Source: Spirochaetota bacterium | Lineage (GTDB): Bacteria; Spirochaetota; UBA4802; UBA5550 | Direction: 5' to 3' | DNA: 49,951 nt | NCBI GenBank assembly: GCA_022709405.1 | Contig: JAKLIV010000001.1 | Coordinates: 1 to 49,951 of the forward strand | Part shown: positions 3,419 through 14,792 of the stretch, piece after piece | Position numbering within the stretch: the first letter of the stretch is position 1 | Layout: each line of letters starts with the position of its first letter | Notes under the pieces: model-generated | What the model saw: the letters and a program-made list of their open reading frames with translations, nothing else | Told to the model about the DNA's origin: nothing | Databases searched by the model: none | Translations under genes and position numbers: made by a program

Positions 3419-4684
3419 TCAGTTCAGAAGGATATAAAGGAGCTCGCATTCTTCCTTGAAGGTCTTCCATCTGGTCACAAATGCGCTTTCGAGCATGATC
3501 GAATCGCCCTTCTTCAAAAGCACCGGGGAATCGTTGACGAGAACCTCGATCGAACCCGACGTCACGGTAATGAAATCGGATCCCTTGTGGAGCAGCAGCG
3601 GGCCCTCGACGATGCTGTTCGGCCCGATTGTCAGTGAATGAGGAATGATCCGGTTCTTTTCATCCTTGAACAACTCTGAAACGTGTACGTTTCTGATGTT
3701 CCTCGCCGGGACCTTGTTTTTTCGTGCGATCGTATAGCCCCGGTCCTTCTGCTGTTCGGTCCCGGTGCTGATGAAAAATTCCAGCGGCCTGTTGAAGAAA
3801 GAGGCCATCTGCACAAGGGTCTGCAGGGAAGGCGAGGTGACGTTGTTCTCTATCTGAGACACCGCGCCTGCGGTCAATCCAAGCACGTCTGCGAGCTCCG
3901 ACTGGGTTATCTCCTTTTCCTTGCGGAGCTTTTTCACCTTTTCGCCGACCCGGATTATTTCGTCGGCCCTTGAGGTCTGGAACCGGATGTCGTTGTCGAT
4001 AATGCGGAAGTAATGCGGTTCGACTGCATGAAAGGACGGCCGGTTTTCGAGCTTGTTGATGTTCAGGCGGTAGTAATCCATGTGGGACGCGTCCAGGGCG
4101 AAAATCACCTGCGTGATATGGGTTATGCTGGCCATGAACTCCTTCGAATGGGCGTCCCTTTCGTAAATCCAGAAGGCCAGGGTGTTCATGTCATAGAGCT
4201 TGGGGCACTTGAAAGCGAAAAAATCGATGACGTCCCGCTCGTTTTTCCAGAGTTCGAAAAGACCGGTGAGGCTGTCGAAGATGTAAAAGGAGCCGTCCCT
4301 TTTCGTTTTTTCGACCTCGTTGAGCACTCCGATGAACGACGATATGTCCCTCGGATTTTCCATGCATATGTAATGCGCAGGATCGATCGCGCCGTCCCGG
4401 TAGAAATCGAGAAAGACCTCGTCGCTGTTTCCCTTGCCGTGGGTGAACGCGTCGATCAGCGTGGTGTTTTCGTTGAAAAGGAACCCATAGCGTTTTTTGA
4501 TCGTATGCGGCGAGTAGTTCGAGTTTATGTAAATGATGTTCTTCTCGAAGTTCTTGTTGTGGTCGATGAACGCCCTGATGAAGCTGTCGATCGAGACGCC
4601 GTTGGCCACCTGCCATACCACATTATCGCCGAGCCTGAGCCCCCCGGTCAGCTTATCGAGGTATGATACGCCGGTGCTGATCAT
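3419..4684 (-). CDS. XRE-family regulator with a KaiC/RAD55-like N-terminal domain and C-terminal cupin
   Basis: This is a three-part protein of 421 residues. Residues 1-225 resemble a KaiC/RAD55 RecA fold (GVSYLDKLTGGLRLGD at the start), but the P-loop GxxxxGKT is missing: the segment reads GDNVVWQVANGVS. Roughly residues 235-295 form an XRE helix-turn-helix (KLRKEKEITQSELADVLG, then AGAVSQIEN). Residues about 340-421 form a cupin fold, as in XRE-cupin sensors. It is probably a transcriptional regulator whose ATPase-like part lost nucleotide hydrolysis and became a sensing or oligomerisation module (inference). It lies 27 bp downstream of xth on the same strand. Targets are unknown. Confidence 0.8.
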   Translation of the reverse strand: MISTGVSYLDKLTGGLRLGDNVVWQVANGVSIDSFIRAFIDHNKNFEKNIIYINSNYSPHTIKKRYGFLFNENTTLIDAFTHGKGNSDEVFLDFYRDGAIDPAHYICMENPRDISSFIGVLNEVEKTKRDGSFYIFDSLTGLFELWKNERDVIDFFAFKCPKLYDMNTLAFWIYERDAHSKEFMASITHITQVIFALDASHMDYYRLNINKLENRPSFHAVEPHYFRIIDNDIRFQTSRADEIIRVGEKVKKLRKEKEITQSELADVLGLTAGAVSQIENNVTSPSLQTLVQMASFFNRPLEFFISTGTEQQKDRGYTIARKNKVPARNIRNVHVSELFKDEKNRIIPHSLTIGPNSIVEGPLLLHKGSDFITVTSGSIEVLVNDSPVLLKKGDSIMLESAFVTRWKTFKEECELLYILLN

Positions 4685-5687: not shown

Positions 5688-6980
5688 ATGAAAAAAACGA
5701 AGCGCGCCTTTCTGATGTTCGGCCTTCTTTCGATCGCCTATGTGCTCGTGTACTTTCACCGCCTGTGCCCTGCGATCGTGGCCGACGACATGATGCGCGA
5801 TTTCGCGACCACTGGCACGCTGCTCGGATTGATGGGAGCAGCCTATTTCTATTCGTACGCGGCGATGCAGCTTCCGGCAGGTCTGCTCACCGATTCGCTC
5901 GGTCCGCGCAGGACGATCACGGTTTTCTTTATCGTGGCCTTTGCCGGATCCCTCGTCATGGGCCTTTCAACCTCGGTTGGATGGGCGGTTTTCGGACGCA
6001 CCCTGGTCGGATTCGGCGTCGCGACTCTTTTCGTGCCCACGCTCAAGATACTGGCCACGTGGTTCAAGCCCGCGGTCTTCGCGCGCCTGACCGGAATCCT
6101 TATCGCCATGGGCGGCGTGGGCTCGCTCATCGCCACGGCGCCGCTTGCGATTCTCACCGAAAAAGTCGGATGGCGCGTTGCATTCCTTATTGTCGCCGGT
6201 GTCACCGTGGCCCTGACGGTCCTGATCCACCTGTTCGTCAGGGACGCGCCCGAAACCGAAACCGGCGGAATACGGCCCGCCTCATCGGAAAAGCGCGGCC
6301 CGGCGGAAGCGGCCGGCCTTCGTGCGGGATTCGCGCTGGTTCTCTCCGACCGGAGCATGTGGGCCCTGTGCGTGTGGTTCTTCTTCACCGCCGCCATATT
6401 TTTTTCGTTCGGCGGGCTCTGGGGCGGCCCGTATCTCATCCACGTCCACGGCCTTTCCAAGACCGGTGCAGGCTCGGTGCTTTCCATGACCGCGCTGGGA
6501 ATGATCATCGGAAGCCCTCTCCTGAGTTTTCTTTCTGACCGGGTGGTCGGAGGCAGAAAACCGGTGCTCGTCGTCTCAGGCGCGCTCACCATTGCCGTTA
6601 CCGCGGCGTTCGCCTTTCTTTCTTCCAGGCTTACGCTGCCGCACCTATATGCGCTGTGCTTCGCTATGGGGATGTTCGCCAACTCGGTGGTGAGCGTGGG
6701 ATTCGCCGCGGTCAAGGAGCTGTTTCCGATGAGGATAGCCGGCACCGCCACGGGCATCGCGAATATTTTTCCGTTCGCCGGGGGGGCCGTGTTTCAGCCG
6801 CTGATGGGCCGCCTAATCGAGCGGCAGGGAGTATCGGCCGGCGTTTACACCCTGCGGGGATACGAAGACGCTTTCCTGTCCCTGTTTGTCGCATCGGTAA
6901 TCGCGTTCGCCGCATGTTTTTTCATGCGGGAGACGCATCCGGGGAAAACGGGCCTGGATACCGCGGTCGTTCCGGATTGA
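5688..6980 (+). CDS. MFS transporter
   Basis: The 430-residue protein is hydrophobic with about 12 predicted membrane spans. The loop between spans 2 and 3 has the MFS motif-A variant GLLTDSLGPRRT (about residues 65-76). It is an inner-membrane secondary transporter; the substrate cannot be read from the sequence. The fosX gene starts 17 bp downstream, so the two probably form one operon and the transporter may export a toxic compound or drug (inference). The start at ATG 5688 follows a weak CGGAG site. A palindrome and an FNR-like site lie just upstream. Confidence 0.92.
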   Translation: MKKTKRAFLMFGLLSIAYVLVYFHRLCPAIVADDMMRDFATTGTLLGLMGAAYFYSYAAMQLPAGLLTDSLGPRRTITVFFIVAFAGSLVMGLSTSVGWAVFGRTLVGFGVATLFVPTLKILATWFKPAVFARLTGILIAMGGVGSLIATAPLAILTEKVGWRVAFLIVAGVTVALTVLIHLFVRDAPETETGGIRPASSEKRGPAEAAGLRAGFALVLSDRSMWALCVWFFFTAAIFFSFGGLWGGPYLIHVHGLSKTGAGSVLSMTALGMIIGSPLLSFLSDRVVGGRKPVLVVSGALTIAVTAAFAFLSSRLTLPHLYALCFAMGMFANSVVSVGFAAVKELFPMRIAGTATGIANIFPFAGGAVFQPLMGRLIERQGVSAGVYTLRGYEDAFLSLFVASVIAFAACFFMRETHPGKTGLDTAVVPD

Positions 6981-6997: not shown

Positions 6998-7423
6998 ATG
7001 ATCTCGGGCTTGAGCCATCTTACATTCATCGTCAGGGACCCCGTGAAGTCGGCAGGTCTCTTTATTCGTGTATTCGGCGCGAGGGAGGTTTACGACAGCG
7101 GTAAAGATTCCCACTCCGTGTCGAGGGAGAAGTTTCTGCTGGTGGGTGATGTCTGGATTGCGCTGATGCAGGGTGAATCCCCGCAGGCCAGAACATACGA
7201 TCATGTGGCTTTCAGAATTTCGGACGATTCATACGATCTGTGCCTGAGCAGGATCAGGGACCTTGGGCTTGAAGTGCTCCCCGGTAGAAGCAGGATATCG
7301 GGCGAGGGCAGGTCCATATATTTCTACGATTACGACAATCACCTGTTTGAGCTTCATACCGGAGAACTCGCCGCCAGGCTTGAGGCATATGGTGTTATGG
7401 CGCATTGCATGGAAACACGATGA
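6998..7423 (+). CDS. fosX: FosX-type fosfomycin hydrolase (VOC superfamily)
   Basis: The 141-residue protein begins MISGLSH and keeps FosX numbering: metal ligands His7, His69 and Glu118, and catalytic Glu44 (sequence VSREKF). The metal-ligand tail reads EGRSIYFYDYDNHLFELH. FosX uses Mn2+ and water to open the fosfomycin epoxide, unlike FosA (glutathione) and FosB (thiol), which lack Glu44. The start at ATG 6998 has AGGGGAGG 9 nt upstream and lies 17 bp after the MFS stop. Chromosomal fosX in environmental bacteria may have another native substrate; hydrolase chemistry is well supported, fosfomycin as the true substrate less so. Confidence 0.9.
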   Translation: MISGLSHLTFIVRDPVKSAGLFIRVFGAREVYDSGKDSHSVSREKFLLVGDVWIALMQGESPQARTYDHVAFRISDDSYDLCLSRIRDLGLEVLPGRSRISGEGRSIYFYDYDNHLFELHTGELAARLEAYGVMAHCMETR

Positions 7424-10236: not shown

Positions 10237-10266
10237 TTGACAAAAAAATTCTTCCGAGACTATGAT
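10237..10266 (+). promoter_or_regulatory. Promoter of the Crp/Fnr regulator gene
   Basis: TTGACA (10237-10242), 18-bp spacer, TATGAT (10261-10266): near-consensus sigma70 boxes about 78 bp before the GTG start. It lies in the divergent gap with the RNA methyltransferase gene. Confidence 0.65.
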
Positions 10267-10343
10267 TCGCGCATGGGCGGCCCTGCGCTATATCCGCAAA
10301 TTATGCGCTTCCGGCATGCCCGCCACCTCAGGCCGAAAAGCGC

Positions 10344-10961
10344 GTGAACACCTTGGGAAACAGGGACGACAAAGAAACATTCAGCCAGCTCATCAGTTAT
10401 TTGAATTCGATCGCCGAAATACCCGAGGATGAACTGGAACTGGTCGGCAGGTTCGTCCGGGTCGTGCACCTGAAAAAGGGCGAGCTTTTCATCAAGGCGG
10501 GCGAAGTTCCCGAATTGAGCGGTTTCATCTGCAAGGGGCTGATGAGGGTGTTCCACATCGACGAGAACGGCAGGGATTTCACCAAGCTGTTCAACCGCGA
10601 ATTCGATTTCGTCTCGTCATTCGCGGCCTTCATCGAAAGGACCGAATCCCACCTGAACGTCGAGGCCCTCGAAGACACCACGGTGTGCGTCATCAACTAT
10701 AAAACGTTCAGGATGTTCATCGATCGCCATTTCTGCTGGCTCAAGATATACGTCAAATCCCTTGAAAAGTTCTATGTCATCAAGGAGCGAAGGGAGGGAT
10801 ATCTTCTCTGGTACGACGCGAAGAGCCGTTACGGCCAGTTTCTCAGGGACTTCCCCGGCCTGGAGAAAAGGGTCGCCCAATACTACATCGCCTCGTACCT
10901 CGGAATCTCACCCGTTTCGCTGAGCCGTATCCGCGCGTCCTTTGCAAAAAAAACCGGCTGA
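10344..10961 (+). CDS. Crp/Fnr-family transcriptional regulator
   Basis: The 205-residue protein has an N-terminal cyclic-nucleotide-binding-type beta-roll (about residues 20-115), a long dimerisation helix and a C-terminal winged HTH (YIASYLGISPVSLSRIRASF). The recognition-helix type SPVSLSRIR resembles Crp/Fnr proteins common in Bacteroidetes and spirochaetes. The FNR Cys cluster is absent, so it is not an oxygen-sensing FeS type. The start is GTG 10344. It is followed by the FAD dehydrogenase, aldolase and SDR genes, two of which carry TTAAC-N4-GTTAA palindromes, making this protein their probable regulator. Confidence 0.92.
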   Translation: MNTLGNRDDKETFSQLISYLNSIAEIPEDELELVGRFVRVVHLKKGELFIKAGEVPELSGFICKGLMRVFHIDENGRDFTKLFNREFDFVSSFAAFIERTESHLNVEALEDTTVCVINYKTFRMFIDRHFCWLKIYVKSLEKFYVIKERREGYLLWYDAKSRYGQFLRDFPGLEKRVAQYYIASYLGISPVSLSRIRASFAKKTG

Positions 10962-10993
10962 TGCCGCGTAAAAAATATCCGCGATCGAAAAAA

Positions 10994-11007
10994 TTAACCT
11001 GTGTTAA
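10994..11007. promoter_or_regulatory. Palindromic operator copy 1 (TTAACCTGTGTTAA)
   Basis: The inverted repeat TTAAC-N4-GTTAA has the geometry of Crp/Fnr-family sites. It is centred 68 bp before the GTG start at 11069. With its flanks it matches the site at 12716-12729 at all but one position over about 22 bp. Confidence 0.7.
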
Positions 11008-11068
11008 TGCTCATGCGGTAACGGGACCTGTATCATGGGGCCGATCTTCGGTGAAAGGGGAGGTTCGG

Positions 11069-12688
11069 GTGAAAGCTGAAAAAAAGTATCAGGCCGATGT
11101 CGTCGTTATCGGCGGGGGGATCGCAGGCATCGTCACCGCGCTTGAGCTGCTTGACCGCGGCAGAAAGGTGCTGATCCTCGACCGTGACGGGCGAGAACGC
11201 TTCGGCGGGCAGGCGATCACCGCGTTCGGGGGGATGATGCTCGTGGGCACGCCCCTGCAGAAACTGCTGGGGGTCCGTGACAGCGCCGATCTCGCGTACT
11301 CGGACTGGTGCGCTACCGCCGATTTCGGCGATGACGACGACCTGCCGCGGCAGTGGGCGCGGATGTACTGCGAGCGCTCCTGTGAGGACATCTACCGCTG
11401 GGTGAGGAGCAGGGGGATTCATTTTCTCCCATCGATCATGTGGCCCGAGCGCGGATACTTCAGGCCGGGCAACTCCCTGCCGAGATACCATATCGTCTGG
11501 GGCACCGGGCAGGGCCTGACCGGGCGGCTGATTCGTCTCCTGCTCGATCATCCGAAAAAGCACGACCTCGCCCTGCATTTCGGTCACCGTGTGACCGGCC
11601 TGGTTCGCTCCGGCGGAAGGATCACTGGGTGCAGTGGCGCTGACCTGTCGTCAGGAACCGATTTCTCGGCAGCCGGAGACGCGGTGGTCATCGCCTGCGG
11701 GGGGATCGCGGGAGACATCGCGAAGGTGAAAAAAATCTGGCCCGCCGACATGGGCAGGTTTCCCGATGACATCCTGATCGGGTCGCATCCGTACTGCGAC
11801 GGCGCAGGACATGAAATGGCGGTGCGGGCCGGGGGAGTGGTGGCCAATATCGGCAGCATGTGGAACTATCCCGAGGGGATCGACCACCCGGATCCCCAGT
11901 TCGAACGGCAGGGCCTGCGGATCCTCGCACCGAAATCCGCGCTGTGGATGGACCATACCGGCAGCCGCATAGGGCCGCTGCCGCTCGTCGGCTATTTCGA
12001 CGCGATGCACGCCTCAAAGGTCATATGCGGGCTCGAAAAGCCGTACTCGTGGCATATAATGAACTGGAAAATCGCGGTCAAGGAGCTCGCGCTTTCGGGG
12101 TCGGAACACAATACTGTTATCCGCGACAGGTCGATCCTGGGGCTCATCCGCACGATCTTCAGGGGCAACCCGGACCTGATACGGCAGATGGTGTCGGAAT
12201 CGAGGGATTTTATCACCTCGCAATCGCTCCCTGAACTGGTTGATAAAATGAACGCGCTCACTGCGACGCCGGACGTCGTTCTCGAGAACATGGAGCGCGA
12301 CATACGGCTGTACGACGAGCAGATCGGACGGGGAGAGAAATTCCACAACGACGACCAGCTGCGAAGGATCGCCCACGCGCGGATGTGGCCGGGCGACCGT
12401 ATGAGGACGTGCAGGTTCCGGAAGATACTGGACCCGGGGGCGCTGCCGCTCATTGCGGTCAGGTACCGTATGCTCACGCGAAAGAGCCTGGGCGGCATCA
12501 GGACCGACCTCGGGAGCAGGGTCGTGGCGAAGAACGGGAAGCCGGTGCCGGGCCTGTACGCGGTCGGCGAGGCCGCGGGATTCGGGGGCGGCGGCATAAA
12601 CGGCAAAAGCTCGCTCGAGGGCACCTTCATATCCAACTGCATCCTGACCGGGAGGATGGCGGCCGGGTCCATCTGCGGAGCGCACTGA
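11069..12688 (+). CDS. FAD-binding dehydrogenase, 3-ketosteroid dehydrogenase/fumarate-reductase-like
   Basis: The 539-residue flavoprotein has the Rossmann loop VVVIGGGIAGIVTALE (GGGIAG at 15-20), FGGQAITAFGG shortly after, and a C-terminal FAD segment GLYAVGEAAGFGGGGINGKS. This layout matches the KstD-like putative FAD-binding dehydrogenases (fumarate reductase/succinate dehydrogenase flavoprotein fold). It probably desaturates or reduces a small carbonyl compound; the substrate is unknown. I placed the start at GTG 11069, 5 nt after AGGGGAGG. A frame open from ATG 10961 would run through the operator. It is followed by the DapA-like and SDR genes. Confidence 0.87.
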   Translation: MKAEKKYQADVVVIGGGIAGIVTALELLDRGRKVLILDRDGRERFGGQAITAFGGMMLVGTPLQKLLGVRDSADLAYSDWCATADFGDDDDLPRQWARMYCERSCEDIYRWVRSRGIHFLPSIMWPERGYFRPGNSLPRYHIVWGTGQGLTGRLIRLLLDHPKKHDLALHFGHRVTGLVRSGGRITGCSGADLSSGTDFSAAGDAVVIACGGIAGDIAKVKKIWPADMGRFPDDILIGSHPYCDGAGHEMAVRAGGVVANIGSMWNYPEGIDHPDPQFERQGLRILAPKSALWMDHTGSRIGPLPLVGYFDAMHASKVICGLEKPYSWHIMNWKIAVKELALSGSEHNTVIRDRSILGLIRTIFRGNPDLIRQMVSESRDFITSQSLPELVDKMNALTATPDVVLENMERDIRLYDEQIGRGEKFHNDDQLRRIAHARMWPGDRMRTCRFRKILDPGALPLIAVRYRMLTRKSLGGIRTDLGSRVVAKNGKPVPGLYAVGEAAGFGGGGINGKSSLEGTFISNCILTGRMAAGSICGAH

Positions 12689-12715
12689 GCCGGGCGGGGC
12701 GGATTCAAAAAAAAA

Positions 12716-12729
12716 TTAACCTATGTTAA
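12716..12729. promoter_or_regulatory. Palindromic operator copy 2 (TTAACCTATGTTAA)
   Basis: Second copy of the TTAAC-N4-GTTAA site, centred 64 bp before the DapA-like gene. The same A-rich left flank and TGC right flank as copy 1 are kept. Nearly equal distances to the two starts support function. Confidence 0.7.
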
Positions 12730-12786
12730 TGCAAATTCCCGTGAAATGAATACAATGGCGTCTAATCATGTCGTGAGAGGTAAGCG

Positions 12787-13767
12787 ATGAAAAAAACCGG
12801 TTCAGGCAATAAAACGTTCAGCGGGGTCTACGCGGTGGTGCCCACGCCGCTCATGGACGACCAGAGCGTCGATTTCAAGGGGCTGGAGAAGCTCCTGCAC
12901 TTCTATATCGACGGAGGATGCCACGGGCTGCTGGTGCTGGGAAGCTACGGCGAGCTGCCCTATTTCACGTTCGAGGAGCGCCTCGAGATCATCAGGCGCG
13001 CGGTCCATTTCGTGGGCGGCCAGATACCGGTCATATCATGCGTCGGCTGCTGCAGCCTGCGCGAGGCCGGGCTTTTTCTCAAACAGACCAAGAGCGTTGC
13101 CGTGGACGCCTATCTGGCGGTGCTGCCCACATATTTTAAGATCACGGTCGAAGATTGCATCCGGTATTACAGCGAGCTCGGCGCGCTTACCGAAAAGCCG
13201 CTCATGTATTATCATATCCCCCAGATAACGGGGATTCGTCCCTCACCGGACGAGTTCGCGCGGCTGCTGCGCCTTGAGCGCATCTCGGGCATCAAGGACA
13301 GCTCGATGAACCTGCCGACACTGAAGCGCGCGACGTCGCTCAGGGAAGAGGCGGGCCTCTCGTATTTCGCGGGCAGCGGGTTCCTGCTCCTGGAAACGCT
13401 CAACCACGGCGGAGACGGCGTCATGTGCACCGTGGCCGCGATATCGCCCCGGACCGTGGCCGGGTGCTACAACGCCTGGACCGCGGGAGACCACGCAGGG
13501 GCGCGGGAGCTCCAGGACCGGATTTTCGATTTTCTGCCGGTCATGAATTCGTTCTCGCTGCCGGTACCGGTGCAGAAATACGGATTCAAGGTTCTGTCGC
13601 TGGTCGGCATGAGCGCCATATCTCCCAGGCAGGCCGTGCTCAAGGAGTATCTCAGGCAGACCGGAATCCCCATAACCGCTGCGGTGAGATCGCCGCTGCC
13701 GCAGGCAACCGAGAGGGACAGGGCCGCGGTCGCCCGGTTTATCAGGAGCATGGGCGATGCTCACTGA
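12787..13767 (+). CDS. Dihydrodipicolinate synthase/N-acetylneuraminate lyase-family aldolase
   Basis: The 326-residue TIM-barrel class I aldolase has the Schiff-base Lys170 in SGIKDSS and the catalytic Tyr in MYYHIPQITG. The usual GTTGE loop reads GSYGE (52-56). The Arg after the YNxP motif that binds the carboxylate in true DapA is replaced (PQITG instead of PSRTG). It is therefore unlikely to serve lysine synthesis and more likely cleaves or forms a keto-acid in catabolism. ATG 12787 follows GAGAGG. It has its own operator copy and sits between a flavin dehydrogenase and an SDR. Confidence 0.88.
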   Translation: MKKTGSGNKTFSGVYAVVPTPLMDDQSVDFKGLEKLLHFYIDGGCHGLLVLGSYGELPYFTFEERLEIIRRAVHFVGGQIPVISCVGCCSLREAGLFLKQTKSVAVDAYLAVLPTYFKITVEDCIRYYSELGALTEKPLMYYHIPQITGIRPSPDEFARLLRLERISGIKDSSMNLPTLKRATSLREEAGLSYFAGSGFLLLETLNHGGDGVMCTVAAISPRTVAGCYNAWTAGDHAGARELQDRIFDFLPVMNSFSLPVPVQKYGFKVLSLVGMSAISPRQAVLKEYLRQTGIPITAAVRSPLPQATERDRAAVARFIRSMGDAH

Positions 13768-13841
13768 CGGATTTCGTTAAAGGGAAGGGCGTTTCAGTCA
13801 TAAGGATTTAATTGTTTTCAGCGTGATAACAGGAGAACGCA

Positions 13842-14627
13842 ATGCAGGGAAAAATAGCTTTGATCACGGGGGCGACATCGGGCATCGGCGCGGGGTTCGC
13901 CAGGAGGTTCGCGGCCGATGGGTATGATCTCATCATCACCGGCAGGAGGAAAGAGATGATCCGGTCCCTGGCCGACGAGCTCGGGAAAAAATACGGCGTC
14001 AGGGTCGAGGTCGTGCTGTGCGAGCTTTCGAACAGGGACGAGATCGAGTCGCTTGCCCAAAGGGTCTCAGGCGAGCCCGGCATCGAGGTGCTGGTGAACA
14101 ACGCGGGCTTCGGTACCAACGAGTTCTTTCACAACGAAGAGTTTTCGGGACAGGAGAACATGCTTTCGGTCCACTGCCTCGCGCCCATGAGGCTCATCCA
14201 TGCCGCGCTCCCGAACATGCTTGCGCGCGGAAAGGGAACGATCATCAACGTGTCGTCGCTGCGCGCGTTCGGGGCCGGAAGGCGGGTCGCGGTCTACTGC
14301 GGCACCAAGTCGTTCCTCAACAAATTTTCAGAGGCGATACACATCGAGAACATGGGAAAGGGGATCAGGATTCAGGCGCTGTGCCCGGGATTCACCAGGA
14401 CCGATTTTCACGAGAGGATCGGGCTGGATACGGAAAGCAACAAGGCCGGGTTCGTGCGCTGGATGCCGGTCGAGAAGCTGGTCGACATATCGCTCAGGGA
14501 CCTGAAAAAGAACAGGGTGATCTGCATACCGGGCCTGTGGAACAAGCTCATGATTTTAGCGCAGTCCCTGATGCCCGCAGGATTGTACTACCGCATAGCC
14601 CCGAGCAACGGGGGATTGAAGGAATAA
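13842..14627 (+). CDS. Short-chain dehydrogenase/reductase
   Basis: The 261-residue classical SDR has the cofactor loop TGATSGIG (9-16), NNAG (86-89), catalytic Ser138 or Ser139, and Tyr152-x3-Lys156 (YCGTK). Arg residues after beta-2 (TGRRKE) suggest NADP(H). It should oxidise or reduce a hydroxyl/keto group, with the substrate unknown. ATG 13842 has AGGAG 7 nt upstream, 74 bp after the DapA-like gene, and no separate operator is visible, so it is probably co-transcribed. Its stop codon lies inside the terminator of the opposing 5S rRNA gene. Confidence 0.93.
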   Translation: MQGKIALITGATSGIGAGFARRFAADGYDLIITGRRKEMIRSLADELGKKYGVRVEVVLCELSNRDEIESLAQRVSGEPGIEVLVNNAGFGTNEFFHNEEFSGQENMLSVHCLAPMRLIHAALPNMLARGKGTIINVSSLRAFGAGRRVAVYCGTKSFLNKFSEAIHIENMGKGIRIQALCPGFTRTDFHERIGLDTESNKAGFVRWMPVEKLVDISLRDLKKNRVICIPGLWNKLMILAQSLMPAGLYYRIAPSNGGLKE

Positions 14628-14651: not shown

Positions 14652-14674
14652 CACGGTATAATTGTATGATGGCA

Positions 14675-14792
14675 ACCTGGCAGCGTCCTACTCTCCCACA
14701 CAGTGCCCCGTGCAGTACCATCGGCGATGAGAGGCTTAACTGCTGTGTTCGGAATGGGAACAGGTGTTTCCCTCTCTCTGTAACCGCCAGGG
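14675..14792 (-). rRNA. rrf: 5S ribosomal RNA
   Basis: On the minus strand the sequence contains the hallmark 5S block CATTCCGAACACAG, then the loop-B region (AGTTAAGCCTC) and the 3' segment GAGAGTAGGACGCTGCCAGG that pairs with the 5' CCTGGCGG. Length is about 118 nt; flanking GGCAACC/GGTTGCC would extend helix I. No 16S, 23S or tRNA is adjacent, so the gene is unlinked. A TTGACA-N17-TTTATG promoter-like sequence directly upstream would start transcription close to the mature 5' end. End positions are approximate to a few bases. Confidence 0.95.

Follow-up and report, generated by a model that had tools for sequence, protein, structure and literature searches.

A palindromic switch that most likely turns on metabolic genes next to a wing-less Crp/Fnr regulator in a Spirochaetota genome

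Results

Genes at the locus

The locus lies in a stretch of 49,951 nucleotides (the window) of a Spirochaetota genome (GCA_022709405.1, contig JAKLIV010000001.1) and comprises, all on the + strand, a gene for a 205-aa regulator of the Crp/Fnr superfamily (10344–10961) followed by genes for a FAD-binding dehydrogenase (11069–12688), a DapA-superfamily aldolase/lyase (12787–13767) and a short-chain dehydrogenase/reductase (SDR; 13842–14627). The regulator has an N-terminal cNMP-binding beta-barrel scoring above the cut-off (PF00027, 44 bits), and its AlphaFold model (pLDDT 93) contains helices at residues 130–156, 179–186 and 190–204, forming a long dimerisation helix and a C-terminal helix-turn-helix. 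A Foldseek search with this model retrieved FNR and CRP (E about 1e-11) together with 3DN7. The protein ends with the recognition helix, and the beta-hairpin wing is absent, with no strands there; this is typical of the subfamily to which the regulator belongs and not of CRP/FNR. Residue alignment places P180, V181 and R185 (CRP numbering) in the recognition helix, R185 being invariant among 22 regulator homologues. At the positions of the cAMP contacts E72, R82, S83, T127 and S128 the regulator has S, S, H, K and E, and its 205 residues include no FNR-type N-terminal Fe-S cysteine cluster. The gene is preceded by a predicted constitutive sigma-70 promoter at 10237–10266 (+; TTGACA, 18 bp, TATGAT; 11/12 consensus matches). 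No TTAAC-type palindrome lies upstream of it, and autoregulation was rejected on this ground.

The dehydrogenase (539 aa) belongs to the PRK12834 family (PF00890, 182 bits; NF009472, 504 bits against a cut-off of 476). Its earlier description as KstD-like is loose, as only the generic FAD-binding dehydrogenase model is passed, and scores against the ketosteroid dehydrogenase models are far under their cut-offs (NF009478, 47 bits against 789; NF005882, 43 against 788). The proposed start at GTG 11069 is well placed, with GGAGG 5 nt upstream, and is also favoured by a predicted transcript start (about 11043) downstream of the earlier in-frame ATG 10961. The aldolase (326 aa; PF00701, 172 bits) retains the Schiff-base lysine in the motif GIKD and has GSYGE in place of the pyruvate motif GTTGE. 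Its profile scores fall under the dapA, nanA and KDG cut-offs, and the name DapA was not adopted (153 bits against an equivalog cut-off of 206; GSYGE for GTTGE; the Arg of GRTG replaced). The SDR (261 aa; PF00106, 142 bits) begins 74 bp 3' of the aldolase, and no terminator-like site was found on the + strand between 13767 and 13842; read-through from the aldolase gene may include it in the same transcript. Convergent with the SDR is a lone 5S rRNA gene (14675–14791, − strand) with a terminator-like hairpin at 14652–14629, and one further 5S rRNA gene occurs in the genome, on contig C146. Elsewhere in the window, a homologue of FosX-type fosfomycin-resistance hydrolases (6998–7423, + strand; NF000222, 182 bits against a cut-off of 170) adjoins an MFS transporter gene (5688–6980).

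Putative operators in the window and across the genome

Two near-identical palindromes lie on the + strand of the locus. Operator 1, TTAACCTGTGTTAA, occupies 10994–11007, 33 bp 3' of the regulator stop, and is extended by TGC to 11010; operator 2, TTAACCTATGTTAA, occupies 12716–12729 and is extended by TGC to 12732. The preliminary description had reported both 14-mers at these positions, each with an A-rich left flank and a TGC right flank, all of which is borne out by the sequence; the two are centred 68.5 and 64.5 bp ahead of GTG 11069 and ATG 12787, respectively. No other match to the palindrome occurs in the window when one mismatch is allowed. Neither palindrome has the GC-rich stem or T-run of an intrinsic terminator, and this function was rejected at both places.

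Scanning of the whole genome (4.38 Mb, 301 contigs) returned 5 exact sites for the bare TTAAC-N4-GTTAA pattern against 2 for the reversed control, a weak enrichment that alone proves little, while allowing one mismatch gave 33 sites against 107 in the control and thus no excess. The extended 17-mer TTAACCTRTGTTAATGC, rather than being scattered at random, has exactly three perfect copies in the 4.38 Mb, two in the window and the third on contig C298, all of them in promoter regions and 64–69 bp ahead of a gene start, and on this basis a chance origin of the palindromes is excluded. Sites with 2–3 mismatches to TTAACCTRTGTTAATGC are genome-wide no commoner than in the control; together with the lack of excess of one-mismatch sites, this indicates that the regulon is small. 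Enrichment had been anticipated at the dehydrogenase, aldolase and SDR genes, and was found at the first two: no site lies upstream of the SDR (13842), and the third genomic copy is on C298, centred 67.5 bp ahead of the ATG start of a gene for an IlvD/Edd-family dehydratase (550 aa), with genes for two OFA-type MFS transporters behind it. The dehydratase is assigned to the family and not to IlvD (dihydroxy-acid dehydratase), its score of 581.5 bits lying below the ilvD cut-off of 618.

Some further sites were set aside. Near-matches on C121 and C269 belong to a dispersed repeat, the nearly identical copies of which, at 3712 and 3937 of L135 (C121) and 7875 of L136 (C269), carry TTAACCAATGTTTATGC, GGGAACATCC and GGTTCCC. 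The C115 sequence TTAACGATCGTTAA, ahead of an enoyl-CoA hydratase gene, has a different core and lacks the −10 spacing described below. At C115:3937–3950 (L004/L041), the palindrome TTAATTAACGATCGTTAATTTA stands ahead of an enoyl-CoA hydratase gene, with TATAAA close by, and is probably the site of another regulator.

Conserved layout behind regulator genes

For comparison across species, 80 named loci obtained by scanning species genomes were pooled with loci of related genomes and all were oriented on the regulator. In these oriented loci the palindrome is located 3' of the regulator stop and not upstream of the regulator gene. TTAAC-N4-GTTAA or TTTAC-N4-GTAAA occurs within −20 to +60 of the regulator's own stop in 54 of 106 homologues, which cover about a dozen phyla (including Bacteroidota, Bacillota, Cyanobacteriota, Pseudomonadota, Spirochaetota, Chloroflexota, Calditrichota, Myxococcota and Thermodesulfobacteriota); of 524 other gene stops, none has either palindrome. 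When every perfect 5-n-5 inverted repeat in the same interval of 105 regulator stops was counted without bias, TTAAC-N4-GTTAA ranked first (38/105) and TTTAC-N4-GTAAA followed among unrelated repeats (16); in three control regions no repeat was counted more than 4 times. In a held-out set of 13 newly drawn Spirochaetota genomes, the predicted palindrome was present in 8, V181 pairing with TTAAC and E181 with TTGAC. Two Spirochaetota homologues of the AVS type (L162 and L163) are without TTAAC, and L163 has GTAACACATGTTAC, which resembles the HcpR2 motif.

In 65 of 72 loci the gene that follows lies on the same strand, and its start is usually about 60–65 bp past the site centre. The targets, counted over 65 next genes, are mostly oxidoreductases, with 19 SDRs, 8 NAD-dependent epimerases, 5 FAD_binding_2 and 5 amine-oxidase-type flavoproteins, 5 DJ-1 and 4 DUF4405 proteins. 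Such oxidoreductase-rich targets suggest, as a guess, a redox- or electrophile-related signal. Flavobacteriia regulators of the SVQ/AVQ/PVQ sub-group (L075, L078, L081, L104, L109 and L110) have the palindrome and a TATATTTG-type −7 element, and in most of these loci the nearest long gene is fumarase-like and on the opposite strand.

Two members of the same family as the window's genome, G019 and G017, encode regulators 78% identical to the window regulator. In both, the gene order is regulator, operator, IlvD/Edd-family gene, the single copy of the extended operator in each genome lying between the two genes, and the dehydratases of G019 and C298 share 89% identity. Two independent lines of evidence therefore place the C298 gene in the regulon: it carries an operator itself, and its orthologue lies behind the regulator gene. 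Conservation of both window targets with their sites was not found in G017, where the orthologues of the FAD dehydrogenase and the aldolase are encoded on other contigs without an accompanying site, indicating that these two targets are particular to the window's genome.

Promoter geometry

When 73 sites were aligned on their centres, TAnnnT was found at 29.5 bp in 37 (6 sites at the second-best offset, mean 1.7), and in the Bacteroidota the lineage-specific −7 element TTTG was found at the same offset in 29 of 32 sites. Taken together, a −10 or −7 element stands exactly 29.5 bp past the centre in 57 of the 73 sites, compared with 6 at the next-best spacing and none at this offset in the reverse direction. 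In the window, the predicted −10 elements TATCAT (11031–11036, +) and TACAAT (12751–12756, +) lie 30.5 and 28.5 bp past the centres of operators 1 and 2, one base either side of this family peak, and CATAAT on C298 lies at 29.5 bp. The promoter search found no recognisable −35 element at the target promoters. Class II activation from −41.5 is established for CRP and FNR, and the 29.5-bp spacing corresponds to this geometry, from which we infer activation.

Recognition helix and half-site

The third base of the half-site varies with the residue that aligns with CRP E181. Homologues with V or I at this position have TTAAC in 78 of 80 arms and those with T have TTTAC in all 32, while E (22 arms) is divided between TTGAT/TTGAC (12) and TTAAC (10). 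On a tree built without the helix, there was 1 independent contrast between T and V/I, and of 4 between E and V/I 3 were concordant and 0 discordant; as the homologues are related, these changes are too few for significance, leaving the rule strong in count and weak in independent events. A correlation of residues 180 and 181 with operator bases has been published, NssR (A180, Q181) having the operator TTAACnnnnGTTAA (PMC1274295), and the residue-181 rule suggested by our alignments agrees with it. The genome also encodes two Crp/Fnr paralogues (C11 and C158) with related helices, and a related palindrome lies behind each of their own genes. The C11 paralogue has E181 yet a TTAAC site, so that cross-talk between the paralogues is possible.

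Discussion

The regulator (10344–10961) is very probably a dedicated local class II activator of the 11069, 12787 and C298 genes, acting through palindromes near −41.5. Its expression would be driven by a strong sigma-70 promoter of its own that has no operator, and its dimer would bind TTAACCTRTGTTAATG palindromes centred near −41.5, in place of a −35 element, where it could make the class II activator's contact with RNA polymerase. The regulator would thereby turn on the FAD dehydrogenase (11069) and the DapA-type aldolase (12787), possibly the SDR at 13842 by read-through, and also the remote C298 IlvD/Edd-family dehydratase plus transporters, probably in response to a signal other than cAMP. 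Binding, activation rather than repression, a shared pathway and a non-cAMP signal are the parts of this scheme that we infer from sequence, and a palindromic switch that turns on neighbouring metabolic genes is its most likely reading. The link between regulator and palindrome drawn in the preliminary description gains from three observations: the palindrome accompanies the regulator gene in about a dozen phyla, its half-site changes with the recognition helix, and its spacing to the −10 element is fixed. The cluster proposed there to be under the regulator's control is upheld for the dehydrogenase and the aldolase, loses the SDR as a gene with an operator of its own, and gains the IlvD/Edd-family dehydratase.

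Crp/Fnr proteins can also repress when their site overlaps a promoter, as established for CRP and FNR, and the regulator might in this way block RNA polymerase at the target promoters. This is improbable, since the palindrome stands at −41.5 and not over the −10 element or the start, with a single-base spacing optimum in 57/73 sites, and the lack of a recognisable −35 element fits dependence on an activator. We consider it marginally less probable still that the main binder is one of the other paralogues, with the window regulator acting elsewhere. The related helices of the C11 and C158 proteins and the related palindromes behind their genes would allow this, but the extended 17-mer differs from both the C11 and the C158 sites and is found, once per genome, behind the homologue of this regulator in G019 and G017. 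Least probable by some distance is that the palindromes are chance occurrences or parts of a dispersed repeat with no regulatory role: the bare exact pattern is only slightly above the reversed control and a similar 17-mer occurs within the C121/C269 repeat, but the flanks of the three operators are unrelated, no palindrome occurs at the 524 other gene stops and the −10 spacing is fixed.

Among known systems, the closest in operator is NssR of Campylobacter jejuni, a Crp/Fnr protein for which positive regulation through TTAACnnnnGTTAA is described (Elvers et al., as cited in PMC1274295). NssR shares with the window regulator a TTAAC-N4-GTTAA operator and residues other than Arg at 180 and Glu at 181, but has A180/Q181 where the window regulator has P180/V181, and serves the globin gene cgb in nitrosative stress, whereas the putative targets here are metabolic oxidoreductases, a dehydratase and an aldolase. 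HcpR2 and HcpR1 similarly recognise FNR-like 5-4-5 palindromes with bases that follow residues 180/181, but differ in their motifs (GTAACnnnnGTTAC and TTGACnnnnGTCAA) and in their targets, hcp and frdX (PMC1274295). The window regulator retains the S-R of the Escherichia coli FNR recognition helix, and the two systems have in common a 5-4-5 palindrome and class II geometry; in contrast, the FNR operator is TTGAT-N4-ATCAA where those of the window are TTAAC-N4-GTTAA, and the TTGAT site, Glu at 181, N-terminal Fe-S cysteines and wing of FNR are all absent here. The nearest solved relative by profile is 3DN7 (E 7e-41), a Cytophaga hutchinsonii regulator from structural genomics that has the same short C terminus and for which the sources searched report no operator, ligand or target.

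These loci likely define a Crp/Fnr subfamily without a wing, spread across phyla, whose members would be cAMP-independent class II activators dedicated to 1–3 promoters each, with an operator directly behind the regulator's own stop and residue 181 setting the third base of the half-site (V/I: A, T: T, E: G). The TTAAC-N4-GTTAA operator of NssR, the covariation of helix and operator, the FNR-like operator and class II logic were already known; new are the subfamily, the arrangement of its loci and the rule for T, V and I at residue 181. A wing-less subfamily with the operator behind its own gene is apparently undescribed so far: the 14-mers and TTTACnnnnGTAAA occurred in no paper of the literature searched, and the subfamily may have been mentioned earlier. 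Very many bacterial genomes hold short Crp/Fnr genes annotated by family only, and the layout of regulator, switch and target yields the operator, promoter and target of such genes from sequence alone, predicts activation at −41.5 and makes a large group of uncharacterised regulators testable. Residue 181 and the third half-site base together form a compact natural data set on protein–DNA recognition, and broaden the published 180/181 rule (PMC1274295) so that it takes in Val/Ile and Thr. In the window's genome, the small regulon connects the FAD dehydrogenase and the aldolase with a dehydratase and transporters encoded elsewhere, a connection that narrows the search for their substrate.
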